The notes beneath the pieces are model-generated. The model saw only the letters and a program-made list of their open reading frames with translations, did no database searches and was not told the origin of the DNA. The position numbers and the translations under genes were made by a program. Below are positions 16,912 to 56,319 of a stretch of DNA of 64,000 nucleotides, piece after piece; position 1 is the stretch's first letter, and the number at the start of each line of letters is the position of its first letter. The DNA comes from a candidate division KSB1 bacterium (GTDB lineage: Bacteria > Electryoneota > RPQS01), in the NCBI GenBank assembly GCA_016214895.1, contig JACRMR010000003.1, forward strand, positions 1 through 64,000. Direction: 5' to 3'.

Positions 16912-17231
16912 GCCCGGCGTCAGCGCTGAACAACTTGCGGCAAGAAAATGCAGGTACGCTCAAGTCGTCGCGTCACTCCTGATACGACGAATTCGCCGTG
17001 GCTCTCTGTAGGGTCTCACTCCGAGCAGTAGGGAGATGCGGAAGTGGGCTGACCCGCCCGCTTCGCTTTCTCCCGCCCCCGTTCACGGGGGGCAAGGGGG
17101 GTCTCGTCAAACCTGCCATTCGCGGAGTAGCCACCGCGTCCCTTGTCTCGCCGGCAGGGACTGTGTCCCTGCCGCAATCAGGGAACAGTAATCACAGTGG
17201 GCGGTCATCAGACCGCCTGCACTTCTTGTTT
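16912..17231. other. Gene-free stretch with three hairpins
   Basis: No coding pattern. It contains a CCCCCGTTCACGGGGGG hairpin near 17086, GGCAGGGAC/GTCCCTGCC near 17153-17173 and GGCGGTC/GACCGCC near 17200-17217. They may end the unseen transcript from the right or be intergenic hairpin repeats. A 7-bp repeat array follows at once. Confidence 0.45.
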
Positions 17232-17273
17232 GATCCTTGATCCTTGATCCTTGTTCCTTGTTCCTTGATCCCA
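17232..17273 (+). repeat. 7-bp tandem repeat array (GATCCTT/GTTCCTT), unpaired
   Basis: Six consecutive 7-mers: GATCCTT three times (17232-17252), GTTCCTT twice (17253-17266) and GATCCCA. The unit matches the right arm at 36748-36775. No complementary array or four-helix-bundle gene is seen nearby. The array overlaps the 5' end of the alkA reading frame. Confidence 0.8.
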
Positions 17274-18227
17274 ATTCCCGTGCTCTTCTCCTTCTCCGCT
17301 CCCCTCGATTTCCGCCAGACCTTGCGCTACATCGGTCGTTTCGAGAACGATACGCTGCACGCCGTCCGCGATGATGCGTACTATCATCTGCTCGGGGATG
17401 ACCGCGGCTATTTTCTGGTGAAAGTCCGTTCCGCTCCGCCCCAACTTGATTGGGGGGGGCAGGGGGGAGGTAAGCCGCCGAGCCGGGTTAAGTCTCCGCA
17501 ACCCGGCCGGAATCTGCTGCAAGCTCAGATTGTGCAGGGCGGTCATTGGAAACTCCGTGAGCAGCAGCTCTCCCATTTCTTGGCGCGCACCTTCGGGCCG
17601 GACGAGACGCTGAACGCGTTCTATCGCTGGCGCGGCAAAGACGAGGTGTTGCGGCGGCTCGTGCGGCGGTTTCGCGGCGTGCGCGTAGTGGGCGTCGCCA
17701 GCCTCTGGGAATGCCTGCTCTGGTCCGTGATCGGACAGCAGGTGTCGGTGCAGTCCGCCTTCGCCGTGCGTTCGCGTGTGACGCGGCTCTCGGGCGCGCA
17801 GGTGACGTGGCGCGGCCAACTCTACGAAGGCTTTCCCACTCCCGAAGCGCTGCTCAGTTTGACCCCGCAACAGCTGCGCGACTGCGGCTTTTCGCGGCAG
17901 AAAGCGGAGTACGCGCTCGGCATCGCGGAGCAGATCCTGAGCGGCGATCTCAACGAAGCCGCGCTCTGCTCCGGTCCGCCGAGTGCGATGCGCGGCGCGC
18001 TGCTCGCGCTGCGTGGCATCGGCCCGTGGTCGGTGGAGTACGCGATGATGCGCCTGCACGCCGATCCCGATGCCTGCCCGTACGAAGACATCGGCCTGCG
18101 CAACGCGATTACGCGAGAATACGGTCTGGCGCGTCAAGCCACCGTGCGCGAAGTCGAGGAGTTGAGCGAGCACTGGCGCCCCTTCCGCGCCTATGCCACG
18201 TTCTATCTCTGGCAGACGCTGTTGTGA
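17244..18227 (+). CDS. alkA: DNA-3-methyladenine glycosylase II (AlkA/HhH-GPD family) with repeat-derived insertion
   Basis: Up to 327 residues. The HhH-GPD core is clear: LLWSVIGQQVS, helix-hairpin-helix ending GIGPWSVEYAMMRL, and a following PYEDIGLRNAI whose Asp fits the catalytic position. The enzyme removes alkylated bases in base excision repair. The start is uncertain: TTG 17244 would translate a 7-bp repeat array into ILVPCSL..., and GTG 17280 is an alternative. Residues about 63-90 (from APPQLDW through SPQPGRN) are encoded by a G-rich stretch plus a complete variable-stem hairpin element (17476-17514), kept in frame, a feature not expected in this family. Confidence 0.88.
   Translation: MILVPCSLIPIPVLFSFSAPLDFRQTLRYIGRFENDTLHAVRDDAYYHLLGDDRGYFLVKVRSAPPQLDWGGQGGGKPPSRVKSPQPGRNLLQAQIVQGGHWKLREQQLSHFLARTFGPDETLNAFYRWRGKDEVLRRLVRRFRGVRVVGVASLWECLLWSVIGQQVSVQSAFAVRSRVTRLSGAQVTWRGQLYEGFPTPEALLSLTPQQLRDCGFSRQKAEYALGIAEQILSGDLNEAALCSGPPSAMRGALLALRGIGPWSVEYAMMRLHADPDACPYEDIGLRNAITREYGLARQATVREVEELSEHWRPFRAYATFYLWQTLL
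17476..17514 (+). repeat. Variable-stem hairpin element inside the alkA coding region
   Basis: CGCCGAG (17476-17482), stem CCGGGTT (17483-17489) with AACCCGG (17500-17506), then CCGGAATC (17507-17514). The flanks equal the intergenic copies. Read in frame it encodes roughly PPSRVKSPQPGRN. Confidence 0.8.
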
Positions 18228-27240: not shown

Positions 27241-27251
27241 TCGCAATTCAG

Positions 27252-27279
27252 GTTTCAAGTTTCACGTTTCAAGTTTGCG
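27252..27279 (+). repeat. 7-bp tandem repeat array (GTTTCAA), unpaired
   Basis: GTTTCAA (27252-27258), GTTTCAC (27259-27265), GTTTCAA (27266-27272) and a degenerate GTTTGCG. It overlaps the possible TTG start of tdk at 27275. No complementary array is seen. Confidence 0.7.
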
Positions 27280-27903: not shown

Positions 27904-27935
27904 AACGATGAACGATGAACGATGAACGATGAAGC
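27904..27935 (+). repeat. Left arm of four-helix-bundle element A: (AACGATG)4
   Basis: Four exact AACGATG units (27904-27931) plus AAGC. They are complementary to the right arm at 28358-28389; with one G-U pair, 32 bp could form in RNA. Confidence 0.9.
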
Positions 27936-27962
27936 CGCCATGAGGACGATGCGGGGACGGCG

Positions 27963-28355
27963 ATGAGTGACCCCGCGCCGGACAGCCGCGGCAAGCCGGG
28001 GGCTGACTTGAAAGCCCGGCTACTCGACTTTTCGCTTCGGATCATTCGACTTCAAGGAGCATTGCCCAAGGCGCCCGCGGCACAGACCATCAGCAGACAG
28101 TTGCTGAGAAGCGGGCTCTCGGTTGGCGCTCAGCAGCGCGAGGCGCATCGCGCAAAATCCGATGCCGACTTTGTCAGCAAGATGGAAGGTGCGCTGGGTG
28201 AGCCGGGCGAGACGACGTATTGGTTGGAGCTGCTGATCGTCGCGAAGATCGTCGAGCCTCGCCGCTTAGCACCACTCATGCGAGAAACCGAGGAATTGAC
28301 ATCAATACTTGTAGCATCGGTGAAACGAGTCAAGTCCCGAAGGACCCGGTCCTGA
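27963..28355 (+). CDS. Four-helix-bundle protein of the 23S rRNA IVS family, element A
   Basis: A 130-residue protein. It has the family pattern F.LRIIRL...LP, QLLRSGLSVGAQQREAHRAKS, DF.SKM..AL and ETTYWLELL in the expected helical order. The family is known as the ORF of intervening sequences in 23S rRNA and, as Avd, as the accessory protein of diversity-generating retroelements; it is basic and thought to bind nucleic acid. Here the gene is free-standing between tdk and nupC, and complementary 7-bp arrays bracket it exactly (27904-27935 and 28358-28389). The paralogue at 36330 has the same arrangement. The ribosome binding site is weak. Confidence 0.88.
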   Translation: MSDPAPDSRGKPGADLKARLLDFSLRIIRLQGALPKAPAAQTISRQLLRSGLSVGAQQREAHRAKSDADFVSKMEGALGEPGETTYWLELLIVAKIVEPRRLAPLMRETEELTSILVASVKRVKSRRTRS

Positions 28356-28357
28356 CC

Positions 28358-28389
28358 GCTTCGTCGTTCATCGTTCATCGTTCATCGTT
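28358..28389 (+). repeat. Right arm of four-helix-bundle element A: (CATCGTT) array
   Basis: GCTT, CGTCGTT, then three exact CATCGTT units (28369-28389), the reverse complement of the left arm. The array ends 10 bases before the nupC ATG and may contribute to or disturb its translation start. Confidence 0.9.
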
Positions 28390-34891: not shown

Positions 34892-35518
34892 ATGTCAGCC
34901 AAACTCTGCCCCAAGATCATACTCGAAGGGACGCGACTCACGCACAAGACCGATCTCGCGTTCGCGTTGAACGAACATCCGCGGATCGTTGGGCCGCGCC
35001 GGTATCGCTATCATTCCCCGCTGATCTCCGCCGAGTGGTGCGCGTTCACGAACTTCCCGTGGGGGCGGGGGCCGATCAATTTCGCGCCGGACGAGGAGCA
35101 GCGCGCCCTGGAGACCTATGCGACGTGGGCGCGGCTGTTTGAGCTGATGCCGTACTACTCGTGGATCGTGGACCGGTTCCACATCTCGACGCAGGCCTAT
35201 CAGTCCGCCGAGCGGAACCGCGACTATGACTTCGGGTGGTTGGAAGCGAAGCTGTTGCCGCTGAAGTTTGTGATCATCTTTTGCACGCGTACGGCCGCCT
35301 CGTTTGCCGGGGCGCGCGACAAGCGGCTGGAAGTCTCCGGCAAGCCAAGCCAGTATGACGATCTTTCGGTGTTTGTCCGGGAGCAGGAACTCATGCGCGA
35401 GCTCATCTCGAAATCGCGGTTGCCGCACTATGAACTGGACGTGTCCGACGGCGACCTGCCGCGAGCCTGCGACCGGATTGCCGACTGGATGACCGGCACG
35501 GGGGCGCTATGGGCCTGA
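34892..35518 (+). CDS. P-loop NTPase-like protein with altered Walker A, possibly nucleoside kinase-related
   Basis: A 208-residue protein. The N-terminus KIILEGTRLTHKTDLAFAL looks like a kinase P-loop in which the usual G-K-T is H18-K19-T20. A later SWIVDRFHISTQAYQ segment matches the D-R-x-x-x-S pattern of thymidylate and deoxynucleoside kinases. The gene overlaps the purine nucleoside phosphorylase gene by 10 bases, implying coupled translation and a role near nucleoside metabolism. Whether the altered loop still binds ATP is unknown. A deoxynucleoside-kinase-like function is inference. Confidence 0.55.
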   Translation: MSAKLCPKIILEGTRLTHKTDLAFALNEHPRIVGPRRYRYHSPLISAEWCAFTNFPWGRGPINFAPDEEQRALETYATWARLFELMPYYSWIVDRFHISTQAYQSAERNRDYDFGWLEAKLLPLKFVIIFCTRTAASFAGARDKRLEVSGKPSQYDDLSVFVREQELMRELISKSRLPHYELDVSDGDLPRACDRIADWMTGTGALWA

Positions 35519-36345
35519 GCCACAGGTTGCTGCCCGACGTGCAGGCCATGGCGAGACGGGTCCCGGGGCCGGCCGATGTGGCGCTGATTCTCGGCTCGGG
35601 ACTCGGCAAGTTCGCGGACACACTGGAAGATGCGCGCGCGGTTTCCACGCGCGATCTCCCCGGCTATCCGCAATCCACCGTGGCGGGACATGCGGGGCGA
35701 ATTATCGTGGGAAACGTCGGCGCGACTCGGGTCATGGCGTTTCAGGGTCGCGTGCACGTCTATGAGGGTTATGCGCCGGAGGTGGTGGTGACGCCGGTGC
35801 GACTCGCGCACGTGCTGGGGATTCGCACGTTGATCGTCACGAATGCAGCGGGCTCGTTTACCCCCCGGTTCGCGCCGGGCGATCTGCTGCTGATCGAGGA
35901 TCACATCAACCTGCAATTCCGAAATCCGCTGCTGGGACTCTGGGATGAGGGAGTGCGCTGTCCCGACGTGTGTCAATTCTACGATCAGGAGTTGATCGAG
36001 CTGGCGGAGCGGGTGGCGTTACGGGAGCAGATTCCGTTGAAACGCGGCACCTTGGCGGCGCTGACGGGCCCCACGTATGAGACCAAAGCTGAGGCGCGCA
36101 TGCTGGCCCGCCTCGGCGCGGACGCGGGCTGCATGTCCACCGTGCCGGAAGTCATCATGGCGACGGCACTCGGGATGCGCGTGCTGGGGATTTCCTGCGT
36201 GACGAATTTCAGCGCAGCGATTCCGGGATCGGTGCTCGATCATGAGCATGTGCAGCGGGTGGCGGAGCGAGCCAGTGAGAAATTCCAACGACTGGTCGGA
36301 GGAGTGCTGCGAGGGGAGAAGGCGGAAGGATGGCGGACGAAATGA
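35509..36345 (+). CDS. punA: Purine nucleoside phosphorylase
   Basis: A 278-residue protein of the trimeric class. The phosphate-binding GSGLGKFADTL lies near residue 25. VAGHAGR, QGRVHVYEGY and IVTNAAGSF follow, then the purine-site region with TGPTYETKAEARML and MSTVPEVIMA. It cleaves (deoxy)inosine and guanosine with phosphate. The gene is coupled to the P-loop gene upstream. Its 3' end overlaps the start of four-helix-bundle element B by 16 bases. Confidence 0.93.
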   Translation: MGLSHRLLPDVQAMARRVPGPADVALILGSGLGKFADTLEDARAVSTRDLPGYPQSTVAGHAGRIIVGNVGATRVMAFQGRVHVYEGYAPEVVVTPVRLAHVLGIRTLIVTNAAGSFTPRFAPGDLLLIEDHINLQFRNPLLGLWDEGVRCPDVCQFYDQELIELAERVALREQIPLKRGTLAALTGPTYETKAEARMLARLGADAGCMSTVPEVIMATALGMRVLGISCVTNFSAAIPGSVLDHEHVQRVAERASEKFQRLVGGVLRGEKAEGWRTK

Positions 36346-36734
36346 AGGAACAAGGAACAGGGATCAAGGAACAAAGTTCCGAGAGACTTGAATTGAGAGC
36401 GCGGACCAAGCGGCTTGCCCTTCGAGTCATCCGGCTCTACCAATCGTTGCCTCGATCAGGAGCGACGGGTCCGATTGCCAGTCAAGTCCTTCGCTCGGGG
36501 ACTTCTGTTGGTGCGCAATATCGTGAAGCGTGCCGAGCGCGGTCCAACGCCGAGTTCTTGAGCAAGATACAGAGTGCAATGCAGGAACTTGACGAGACCG
36601 GATACTGGCTTGAGTTACTGATCGACTCCGGATTGGTACCGCGGACCAAAGTGGGTCCTCTGAGTGGTGAAGCCGATGAGCTGCTTGCAATCCTGTACTC
36701 CATTCAACGCAAAGTCAAGAGGTCGGCTCGATGA
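36330..36734 (+). CDS. Four-helix-bundle protein of the 23S rRNA IVS family, element B
   Basis: A 134-residue protein. It shares RVIRLYQSLPR, QVLRSGTSVGAQYREACRARS, EFLSKI and ETGYWLELL with the paralogue at 27963. The 7-bp repeats of the left arm (36345-36372) are translated into the N-terminal KEQGTGIKEQ-like stretch, so the true core begins near residue 20. The start codon overlaps the end of punA and the stop shares ATGA with the start of the next gene, so the element sits in a tightly packed run of three genes. Nucleic-acid binding is inferred from the family. Confidence 0.85.
   Translation: MADEMKEQGTGIKEQSSERLELRARTKRLALRVIRLYQSLPRSGATGPIASQVLRSGTSVGAQYREACRARSNAEFLSKIQSAMQELDETGYWLELLIDSGLVPRTKVGPLSGEADELLAILYSIQRKVKRSAR
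36345..36372 (+). repeat. Left arm of four-helix-bundle element B: (AAGGAAC) array
   Basis: AAGGAAC, AAGGAAC, AGGGATC, AAGGAAC. It is complementary to the right arm at 36748-36775 in 26 of 28 positions. Confidence 0.9.
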
Positions 36735-38464
36735 CGCGCTACGCATTGATCCTTGTTCCCTGTTCCTTGTTCCTTGTTCTGGCTGCTTCCGCTCAGCAGC
36801 TCTACGATCCCGGCGACTGGGTGTCCTATCAGGATTTTCGCTATGCGCGGGCGCTGGACGCGGGTCAGCATGAGCTGTTCGTGGCGACGTCGGGCGGGAT
36901 TCTCAACTACGATCTGCTCAAGCGACAGTGGTATGATCCGATGGTCGTCGGCTACAGTTTGTCGGGGCCGGTGCGAATCGACGATCCGATGCTGCTCTAT
37001 TTCGATGATCCGGCGCAGCGCTTGTGGGTGGCGACACGCACGCAGCTACTGCAGTACGACCTCGGGATGGAGAGCTGGAAGCTCACCGATCACGACCGTT
37101 GGACGGAGCAGGAGCTGGTCGTGAATCTGGGAGTGGGCGGTGAAGATTTGTACGTAGAGACGATTCCGGCCAGCCTCTATACGCGGCTGTTCCACCCGAA
37201 TAGTCCGATTCCCGATCCGATCTGGTATGATGCCGTCACGCGCTACAAGGGCTCGCGGCAGTTCGGCGGCCTGATGATCGATATCAGCGGGGCTGATCCG
37301 GGGAACGTCCGCTGGCGCGGGCTGCGTTCGAAGATTCCGCTGGAACGCAACGATTTGCTGAATCCGCAGCCGCTGCCACCCGTCGGCTTCCCGGTAGCGC
37401 TGATGCCCTCCGGCTATACCTGGCAGGCTGACGGCACGGTCATCGATCAGCAGCTGCGCCCGGCTCCGATCACAGACTGGATCATGGACCGCTGGGGTAC
37501 GCTCTGGACCGCGCAGTGGGGTGCCGGGATCATGCAGACCGATTTGAGACTCGGGAGCGCGACATTCTACCAGGCGGGACCGGCGGGAAACGATGTTCGC
37601 ACGATCCACATCGGACCCGAAAAGATCTGGATGGGCGGGCTGAACTCGGGCGAGCGCGAAGGATTTGCGCGGGTGAACGACTATTTCGACGAGTGGACGA
37701 CGGTTGAGCGGCGCGCTGACTCACGCATCCGATCCACCGACGTCTGGGACATCACGGACTGGGGCGGCAAAGTCTGGTTTGCAACCAATGAGGGGTTACT
37801 CTCGTATCATGAGAAGAGGGGGACGTGGGAGCGGCTGGATGTGACGGACAATCTCTATGCCAGTGAGATTCGTGCGCTGGCCCGCGGCGGGAATTCGCTC
37901 TGGGTGGGGACGGTGCGGGGCCTCTGCGAACTGGGCGCGGGGGGGGAGATCTGGCGGGTACAGAATCCGGGAATCGAACTGGCCGGAGTGACCGATCTGC
38001 TGCTGTTCAACGATGACCTGTTCGTGGCGACGCCGCAGGGGCTGTTCAAGGGGTCCGCGAGCAACCGTGAATTCAGCTATGTCGATCTCGAAGGCGGTCT
38101 GCTGAATGCGCCGGTCGTGGACCTGTGTCTCGATGGCGATAGTGTGTGGCTGGCGACCCCGGATGGGATTGAAGTCATGAACACAGACGGCGGTTATCTG
38201 AAAAGCTGGCTATCGAACACGTGGTTCAACAGCAGCCGCGTGAGCAGCATTCTGGCGACGGACCGGCATGTCTGGGTGGGAACCGACGGCAGCGGCATGT
38301 ACCGCTACCGCAAAGATACCGGCGAGTGGATCAGCTATACCACCGCTGACGGGCTCATCGACAACCACGTTCAGGTGCTCCGGTTGTTTGGCGATGACTT
38401 GCTGATCGGAACCCCGAACGGTTTGACTCGGTTCTATTGGAACAGGGCGGGCCGGCTGAGGTAG
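36731..38464 (+). CDS. Secreted beta-propeller protein (two-component-regulator-propeller type)
   Basis: A 577-residue protein. Residues about 1-22 are a signal peptide whose hydrophobic core (LILVPCSLFLVL) is encoded by the right-arm repeats of element B. The rest consists of repeated propeller blades with the patterns LFVATSGGILNYD, LWVATRTQLLQYD, VWFATNEGLLSYH, LWVGTVRGLCEL, VWLATPDGIEVMN and VWVGTDGSGMYRY. Such blades in other proteins sit in periplasmic sensor domains; here no kinase or membrane segment follows. There is no sorting tail. It is likely periplasmic or secreted and translationally coupled to the four-helix-bundle gene through ATGA. Confidence 0.8.
   Translation: MTRYALILVPCSLFLVLAASAQQLYDPGDWVSYQDFRYARALDAGQHELFVATSGGILNYDLLKRQWYDPMVVGYSLSGPVRIDDPMLLYFDDPAQRLWVATRTQLLQYDLGMESWKLTDHDRWTEQELVVNLGVGGEDLYVETIPASLYTRLFHPNSPIPDPIWYDAVTRYKGSRQFGGLMIDISGADPGNVRWRGLRSKIPLERNDLLNPQPLPPVGFPVALMPSGYTWQADGTVIDQQLRPAPITDWIMDRWGTLWTAQWGAGIMQTDLRLGSATFYQAGPAGNDVRTIHIGPEKIWMGGLNSGEREGFARVNDYFDEWTTVERRADSRIRSTDVWDITDWGGKVWFATNEGLLSYHEKRGTWERLDVTDNLYASEIRALARGGNSLWVGTVRGLCELGAGGEIWRVQNPGIELAGVTDLLLFNDDLFVATPQGLFKGSASNREFSYVDLEGGLLNAPVVDLCLDGDSVWLATPDGIEVMNTDGGYLKSWLSNTWFNSSRVSSILATDRHVWVGTDGSGMYRYRKDTGEWISYTTADGLIDNHVQVLRLFGDDLLIGTPNGLTRFYWNRAGRLR
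36748..36775 (+). repeat. Right arm of four-helix-bundle element B: (GTTCCTT) array
   Basis: GATCCTT, GTTCCCT, GTTCCTT, GTTCCTT. It lies within codons 6-15 of the next gene. Confidence 0.9.
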
Positions 38465-55938: not shown

Positions 55939-56245
55939 GCCGAGCGGGGTCTTGTTCGCCGAGCGGGGTGCCCTCACCCCGCCGGAATCTTCGCTTCGCC
56001 GAGCCGTGCGTCCTCGCGCAGCCGGAATCGGAGTCTTCTTCGCCGCGGCATGTGTCTCCACATGCCCGGAATCGGGATCTTCTGTTCGCCGAGCGGGGTG
56101 CCCTCACCCCGCCGGAATCTTCGCTTCGCCGAGCCGTGCGTCCTCACCCCGCCGGAATCGGAGTCTTCTTCGCCGCGGCATGTGTCTTCACATGCCCGGA
56201 ATCTTCGCTCCGCCGAGCGGGGATTCCTTCCCCGCCGGAATTTCG
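55939..56245 (+). repeat. Cluster of variable-stem hairpin elements with a 130-bp tandem period
   Basis: A block starting TTCGCCGAGCGGGGTGCCCT at 55955 recurs at 56085, period 130 bp. Within it, hairpins alternate: GGGGT/ACCCC (55964 and 56094 regions), a GTGCG-containing unit, and GCATGTG/CACATGC (56047-56064 and 56177-56194), each between a CGCCG(A/C)G flank and a CCGGAAT(C) flank. A final unit has GGGGA/TCCCC (56219-56233). The open frames crossing it are repeat-derived. Confidence 0.85.
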
Positions 56246-56319
56246 CCTTGCTTCCCGGTATGGGCGGATTAAACTCTACCCCGGTGATTCTGTCTAACGA
56301 TCGGACGGCCAGAATCGAA

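Follow-up and report, generated by a model that had tools for sequence, protein, structure and literature searches.

At one operon junction of a candidate division KSB1 bacterium, a small gene for a four-helix-bundle (fhb) protein lies between two mirrored arrays of 7-bp repeats. The locus, here called element B, occupies positions 36345-36775 of the window, by which we mean the whole 64,000-nucleotide stretch of contig JACRMR010000003.1 that was analyzed. We know of no function for the fhb/S23 family, although structures were solved in 2006-2007, and to our knowledge there is no agreed origin for the heptamer repeats of cyanobacteria, Xanthomonas, and other bacteria. If fhb genes and heptamers belong together, the repeats gain a candidate protein and the protein a candidate substrate, and both questions become open to experiment.

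An fhb gene between mirrored heptamer arrays

The left array of element B (36345-36374, forward strand) consists of the units AAGGAAC, AAGGAAC, AGGGATC, and AAGGAAC, followed by AA. It directly abuts the stop codon of the upstream gene of the host operon, which encodes a purine nucleoside phosphorylase-like protein (35509-36345, forward strand; the name was read off its translation). At the same time, it lies inside the 5′ end of the fhb open reading frame (ORF; 36330-36734, forward strand) and encodes the N-terminal end of that protein, for which the start codon candidates are 36330 or a later ATG, such as that at 36342. The right array (36746-36775, reverse strand; the array extends to 36779) is an inverted copy of the left one. 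It contributes part of the signal peptide of a downstream, co-directional gene for a propeller-like protein (36731-38464, forward strand), where it forms the codons for the hydrophobic part, MTRYALILVPCSLFLVLAA. In another genus, the orthologous site (L031) has TTCATCC repeats instead, which likewise encode part of the signal peptide (MKRLSFILHPSSFILFF...).

The left arm and the reverse complement of the right arm agree at 28 of 30 positions. They align with a score of 25.0, whereas 2000 dinucleotide shuffles averaged 9.1 and did not exceed 17.5, and when the geometry of element B was placed at random across the window 2000 times, the score was equalled only at a second locus, element A (27904-28389). 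Both arrays of element B were recovered by Tandem Repeats Finder, and period 7 was dominant among the short tandem repeats of the window. The gene with mirrored arrays that had been claimed in the initial annotation is thus confirmed, with the match now extending over the 30-bp arms given above.

The encoded protein matched PF05635 (5e-19, 68.8 bits, cut-off 33.8) and TIGR02436 (2e-24, 86.1 bits, cut-off 24), models of the Avd-like S23/IVP proteins, with the conserved domain at 36384-36698; the only other family matches were two uncharacterized models, below cut-off. Its predicted structure is an Avd-like four-helix bundle (pLDDT 95). The best Foldseek matches were 2rld (BT_0352) and 2gsc (Xcc0516), with five chains per entry each; Avd (4dwl) and the DGR complex 8ub7 ranked next (TM about 0.77-0.80, identity about 20%). 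Judging from the chain counts of 2rld and 2gsc and from relatives, the fhb protein is probably pentameric; the unit counts of the arms vary, so that their fit to five subunits is loose.

Other fhb loci and solo arrays in the same genome

Element A is built in the same way, with a left array of four AACGATG units plus an inner extension (27904-27943, forward strand), an fhb gene with a PF05635 domain (28023-28313, forward strand), and an inverted right array of TTCATCG units (28350-28389, reverse strand). The genome contains six PF05635 genes, all of which have inverted heptamer arms, each with its own unit. The proposal that the same plan recurs with differing units therefore holds across the six fhb loci, and left and right units co-vary within every one of them (6/6), as well as at 126 of 140 loci overall.

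Several intergenic places of the genome hold tandem 7-bp units, as in STRR-type heptamer repeats. Two of these solo arrays lie in the window, both in the right-arm (pyrimidine) orientation and upstream of an ORF. The first (17230-17278, reverse strand) has the unit of element B, TTGATCC/TTGTTCC, with no fhb gene or partner seen adjoining; the second (27247-27276, reverse strand) has the unit of fhb locus L011, TTCAAGT/TTCACGT, and no fhb gene. At L004 (1456-1562; region of G000:C20:96230-96303), approximately 12 TTGTTCC-type units and then TCATCCC units run right up to a start codon that has no fhb gene beside it, and at L009 (1501-1797; G000:C25), a decayed copy of an fhb gene contains an in-frame TAG, while its arms remain recognizable. 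A longer tandem repeat in the window (55953-56246), with a period of approximately 130 bp that can also be read as 40-44 bp, is unrelated to the heptamers.

Recurrence of the plan across bacteria

Among the 13 genomes of the order to which the window genome belongs, eight contain fhb genes, and most of those loci follow the plan of element B. When 20 fhb proteins from this order were aligned and used as the query against bacterial genomes, 80 loci were obtained, which fall in Chloroflexota, Acidobacteria, Planctomycetes, Cyanobacteria, Nitrospirae, KSB1, Ignavibacteria, Chlorobi, Verrucomicrobia/Kiritimatiellae, Sumerlaeota, and Proteobacteria. The arm score at these loci averaged 21.5 for matched left-right pairs versus 11.9 for mismatched pairs, and 10,000 permutations reached at most 13.6. 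The fhb loci compared in all, which come from more than 10 phyla, were chosen by protein only; of these 140, 126 had arms with a score of at least 14, a level reached by 0.2% of shuffled flanks, and 10 lacked clear arms. Distant PF05635 subfamilies also had arms, with other cores. The recurrence of this plan in at least 10 bacterial phyla suggests a very small, widespread mobile element.

Almost no such elements were found in the viral contigs and phages searched, and few on plasmids, which makes a phage or plasmid origin unlikely. The fhb genes on plasmids (L117-L119, L122) lie in sense orientation within defense or metabolic operons (DISARM drmD/MmeI, csx2/cas1, and FabH/M20 peptidase).

Arms follow the fhb lineage and consist of cores and spacers

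The arms travel with the fhb gene lineage: arm similarity tracks fhb protein distance (rho -0.63 over 7379 locus pairs without shared flanks; the most extreme of 500 permutations was -0.18). Inside the B-like subfamily, the correlation was -0.38, with a permuted extreme of -0.20. The earlier view that inheritance along with the gene does not simply account for the arms was not borne out by this correlation, nor by the joint change of gene and unit at one junction (see below).

It had also been suggested that each pair of arms is homogenized on its own. In support of this, in three of five classes (p 0.007, 0.004, and 0.002) the left and right arms of a locus matched each other slightly better than they matched same-class arms from elsewhere; the advantage was without support in the AGGGATG (p 0.10) and AATGCAG (p 0.95) classes. 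In addition, odd units occur in matching order in both arms at some loci, such as L124 and L091. The units nevertheless follow the fhb lineage, and local homogenization as the reason for the differences between units is weakened by the arm-protein correlation and by the joint switches of gene and unit. We read the arms as identical at the birth of a copy and drifting apart later. Some pairwise copying between the arms of one locus is likely, and continuous homogenization may take place as well.

When folded at period 7, the arms showed unequal positions: a lineage-specific core of 3-5 nt and variable spacer bases. The core is (G)A(A/G) in the B-like subfamily, and CAGT, (T/C)AGC, AAT(C/T), or GTT in the other unit classes, which comprise four to six loci each and were grouped by eye. 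Mismatch between adjacent units was about 0-0.2 in the core, with several classes at about 0-0.16, and 0.3-0.76 in the spacer, as exemplified by the AGC class (0-0.15 versus 0.72-0.76) and the CAGT class (0.04-0.16 versus 0.33-0.50). Pure tandem duplication would not yield this pattern, since it would homogenize every position alike, whereas a constant core with free spacers is expected if a protein recognizes the core. This weakens the suggestion of an active process that builds or copies 7-bp units.

An alternative is that the arrays grow by replication slippage and are repaired mutually through hairpins, with fhb as a passenger or stabilizer. Some arrays are near-perfect, such as the AACGATG units of element A, long solo arrays occur, and the closer match of own arms in three of five classes would also fit this scenario. 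However, cores are far more constant than spacers inside arrays, the unit type tracks the fhb lineage, and gene and arms appear and vanish together at one junction. We consider this scenario highly improbable, and slippage as the sole cause is rejected by the core and spacer variability.

Turnover at an operon junction

A search of the genus returned only the window's own genome, and empty sites were hence studied in Anaerolineales. Comparison of flanks among loci revealed elements at shared sites. Within one such group, gene and flank distances were mostly alike for pairs with the same unit, whereas for pairs with different units the gene distance mostly exceeded the flank distance (e.g., 0.32 for the gene and 0.17-0.18 for the flanks of L099/L112).

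A junction between two ABC half-transporter genes was read in approximately 97 genomes. The junction was empty, contained an fhb element of the AAGGATG type, or contained one of the AATTATG type; at L155, L180, L208, L214, L215, L222, and L169, the arms were kept and the gene was partly or wholly deleted. These states were interleaved on the tree of the upstream protein, with 48 changes. Each state was called by a simple scheme based on repeat words, distance, and a protein match, and single assignments may be wrong. The upstream proteins of a full (L153) and an empty (L154) junction were 97% identical. The AAGGATG and AATTATG types enter the junction approximately 18 bp apart, indicating separate insertions, and gene type and unit type switch jointly. 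Part of the states could result from homologous exchange rather than transposition. Moreover, some element sites are common to distant relatives, and many copies may therefore be old. From the turnover of sites, together with the copy number (3-19 per genome in nine Chloroflexota genomes), we infer that the element is mobile.

These observations also bear on a static regulatory module, in which fhb would bind heptamers in its own or other mRNAs, or in operator DNA, in a TRAP-like manner, and the arrays would be dispersed binding sites. Such a module would agree with the core-plus-spacer layout, the fixed 7-nt pitch, and the lineage-specific cores, and with the placement around translation stops and starts within operons. 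It agrees poorly, however, with the rapid turnover of presence and absence at one junction, and the several copies per genome and decayed, gene-less remnants resemble a mobile element instead. We think it very unlikely that a static module accounts for these loci.

Other inserts also occupy the ABC junction in some genomes. At L206, inverted repeats (TCATCGCCCTGAGCGGAG...CGCTCAGGGCGATG) enclose a GIY-YIG endonuclease-like ORF, which makes this a further element of one gene with inverted ends, and L157, L159, L168, L182, L187, L193, L227, and L230 contain REP-like palindromic inserts of approximately 170-200 bp (GGTGGTTGAGTAG...CTACTCAACCACC).

Orientation within operons and pairing of the arms

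The elements sit close behind stop codons, between co-directional genes. Where both neighbors could be called, 51 elements were co-directional with both, 5 were antisense between co-directional genes, and 5 lay between opposed genes, with the orientation of neighbors called from ORF length only. This distribution suggests that either insertion or survival depends on sense orientation.

Sense orientation inside operons would also be expected of an element that acts at the RNA level, like the intervening sequences (IVS) of 23S rRNA. The arms would then form a stem for RNase III, making insertion into an operon tolerable, and selection for base-pairing would keep them matched. IVS with an S23 ORF (e.g., in Coxiella) share the PF05635 family with element B, are close to it in size at about 0.43 kb, and have terminal inverted repeats, as B does; a mobile origin has been proposed for them, and the 28-bp stem of known IVS is cut by RNase III (PMC4990558). 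The stem-forming terminal inverted repeats typical of IVS are found in element B as well, the complementary arms of which are paired in the predicted fold of its transcript (z -4.0). Element B differs from IVS in lying between the protein genes of an operon, not within 23S rRNA, and in having arms of tandem heptamers with core and spacer. The mismatches between arms, however, showed no preference for G-U pairs: of the transitions, 99 were wobble-compatible and 93 incompatible (p 0.72), and transversions were common (317). Pairing alone also fails to explain constant cores and free spacers within one arm. As the reason for the arms, selection for RNA pairing is unsupported by the test for G-U bias, and we find an RNA-level element an unlikely explanation.

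A candidate minimal mobile element

In our judgment, element B is probably, though by no means certainly, one copy of a minimal mobile element of approximately 0.45 kb, whose arms are the end sites for an Avd-like protein. Such an element would comprise one fhb gene and, on either side of it, a terminal inverted repeat of about four or more heptamers. The fhb protein would assemble into an Avd-like ring and bind both ends, with each subunit contacting one heptamer core, and the element would disperse by copying. The intermediate would be a hairpin of single-stranded DNA or else RNA, and the enzyme would come from the host or be borrowed. Insertion would occur in sense orientation behind stop codons inside operons. 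Fresh copies would begin with matching arms, which drift apart later, and gene-less pairs would be non-autonomous copies spread in trans, like REPINs with RAYT. Dispersal of the element itself is, we believe, a better reading of the role of the heptamers than the building or copying of units. If true, this would be a very small mobile element that reshapes gene ends across many phyla; in the operon studied here, host genes even take signal-peptide codons and stop codons from the repeats.

We know of no catalytic domain in the fhb protein. Avd partners a reverse transcriptase in diversity-generating retroelements, which makes an RNA intermediate possible; the alternative would be a single-stranded DNA hairpin, as in RAYT/REPIN systems. 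The Avd proteins (4dwl, 8ub7) have the same fold as the B protein, but the immediate neighbors of element B, the phosphorylase-like and propeller-like genes, include no reverse transcriptase gene. In REPIN/RAYT systems, REP palindromes are the substrate of RAYT, a Y1 HUH transposase. These systems resemble the elements described here in that one gene is flanked by repeats of its own type, while inverted pairs without the gene are numerous elsewhere; the B protein, however, is an Avd-like helical bundle, and no Y1 HUH transposase is encoded between the repeats of B. Similarly, MITEs and insertion sequences have terminal inverted repeats, with gene-bearing and gene-less copies, while element B differs in that it encodes no DDE or HUH transposase and that its arms are heptamer arrays.

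Relation to published heptamer repeats

Neighboring arrays at most 200 bp apart in five genomes formed 12 convergent pairs and 0 divergent ones, and gene-less inverted pairs were present in four of the five (G003, G004, G537, and G544). The GGGAATC heptamers of Xanthomonas are intergenic, mostly with four units, and located shortly behind the 5′ gene; X. campestris has 70 convergent pairs, the sites are not common between species, and the counterpart in Nostoc is GGGGA(C/T)T (PMC4692102). Like the arms of element B, these heptamers and the cyanobacterial STRR are 7-bp intergenic tandem arrays, often in convergent pairs. The Xanthomonas and Nostoc heptamers were published without a gene, whereas here such arrays flank fhb genes, including GGGAATC arrays in G537 and G544.

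In the search for GGGAATC, the 21-mer was found in one of 369 sampled Gammaproteobacteria genomes, G537. In this genome and its genus-mate G544, an fhb gene lies between putative accB and accC, with inverted GGGAATC arrays on both sides, as had been predicted beforehand; the fhb gene of G537 is truncated. A further genome of this genus, G541, contained 23 GGGAATC repeats, and fhb was not detected in it, which speaks against a strict coupling of the two.

The S23 family, intervening sequences with inverted repeats (PMC4990558), and heptamer repeats are already known. In the papers that we could search, with partial coverage, we found no description of inverted heptamer arrays as a general companion of fhb, of the core and spacer layout, or of the link to the repeats of Xanthomonas and cyanobacteria, and no link at all between fhb genes and heptamer repeats; an earlier description is possible. 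A 2015 paper on the TAACTGA heptamer (PMC4679880) does not mention the gene, nor does a 2015 paper on quadruplexes.

An element of the kind proposed above would explain the 7-base repeats of cyanobacteria and Xanthomonas. Somewhat speculatively, and with less than even confidence, we suggest a separate class of mobile elements, in which an Avd-like pentamer would read one core per subunit in inverted arrays, and copies of the element would enter the ends of operon genes by way of single-stranded DNA or RNA. The cyanobacterial STRR and the Xanthomonas GGGAATC pairs would then be non-autonomous copies of this class, and the 23S intervening sequences one of its branches. Within the order of the window genome (n = 13), arrays with a GAA core were more common in genomes with fhb than in others (p 0.003), and two genomes without fhb still carry 25 and 55 arrays.
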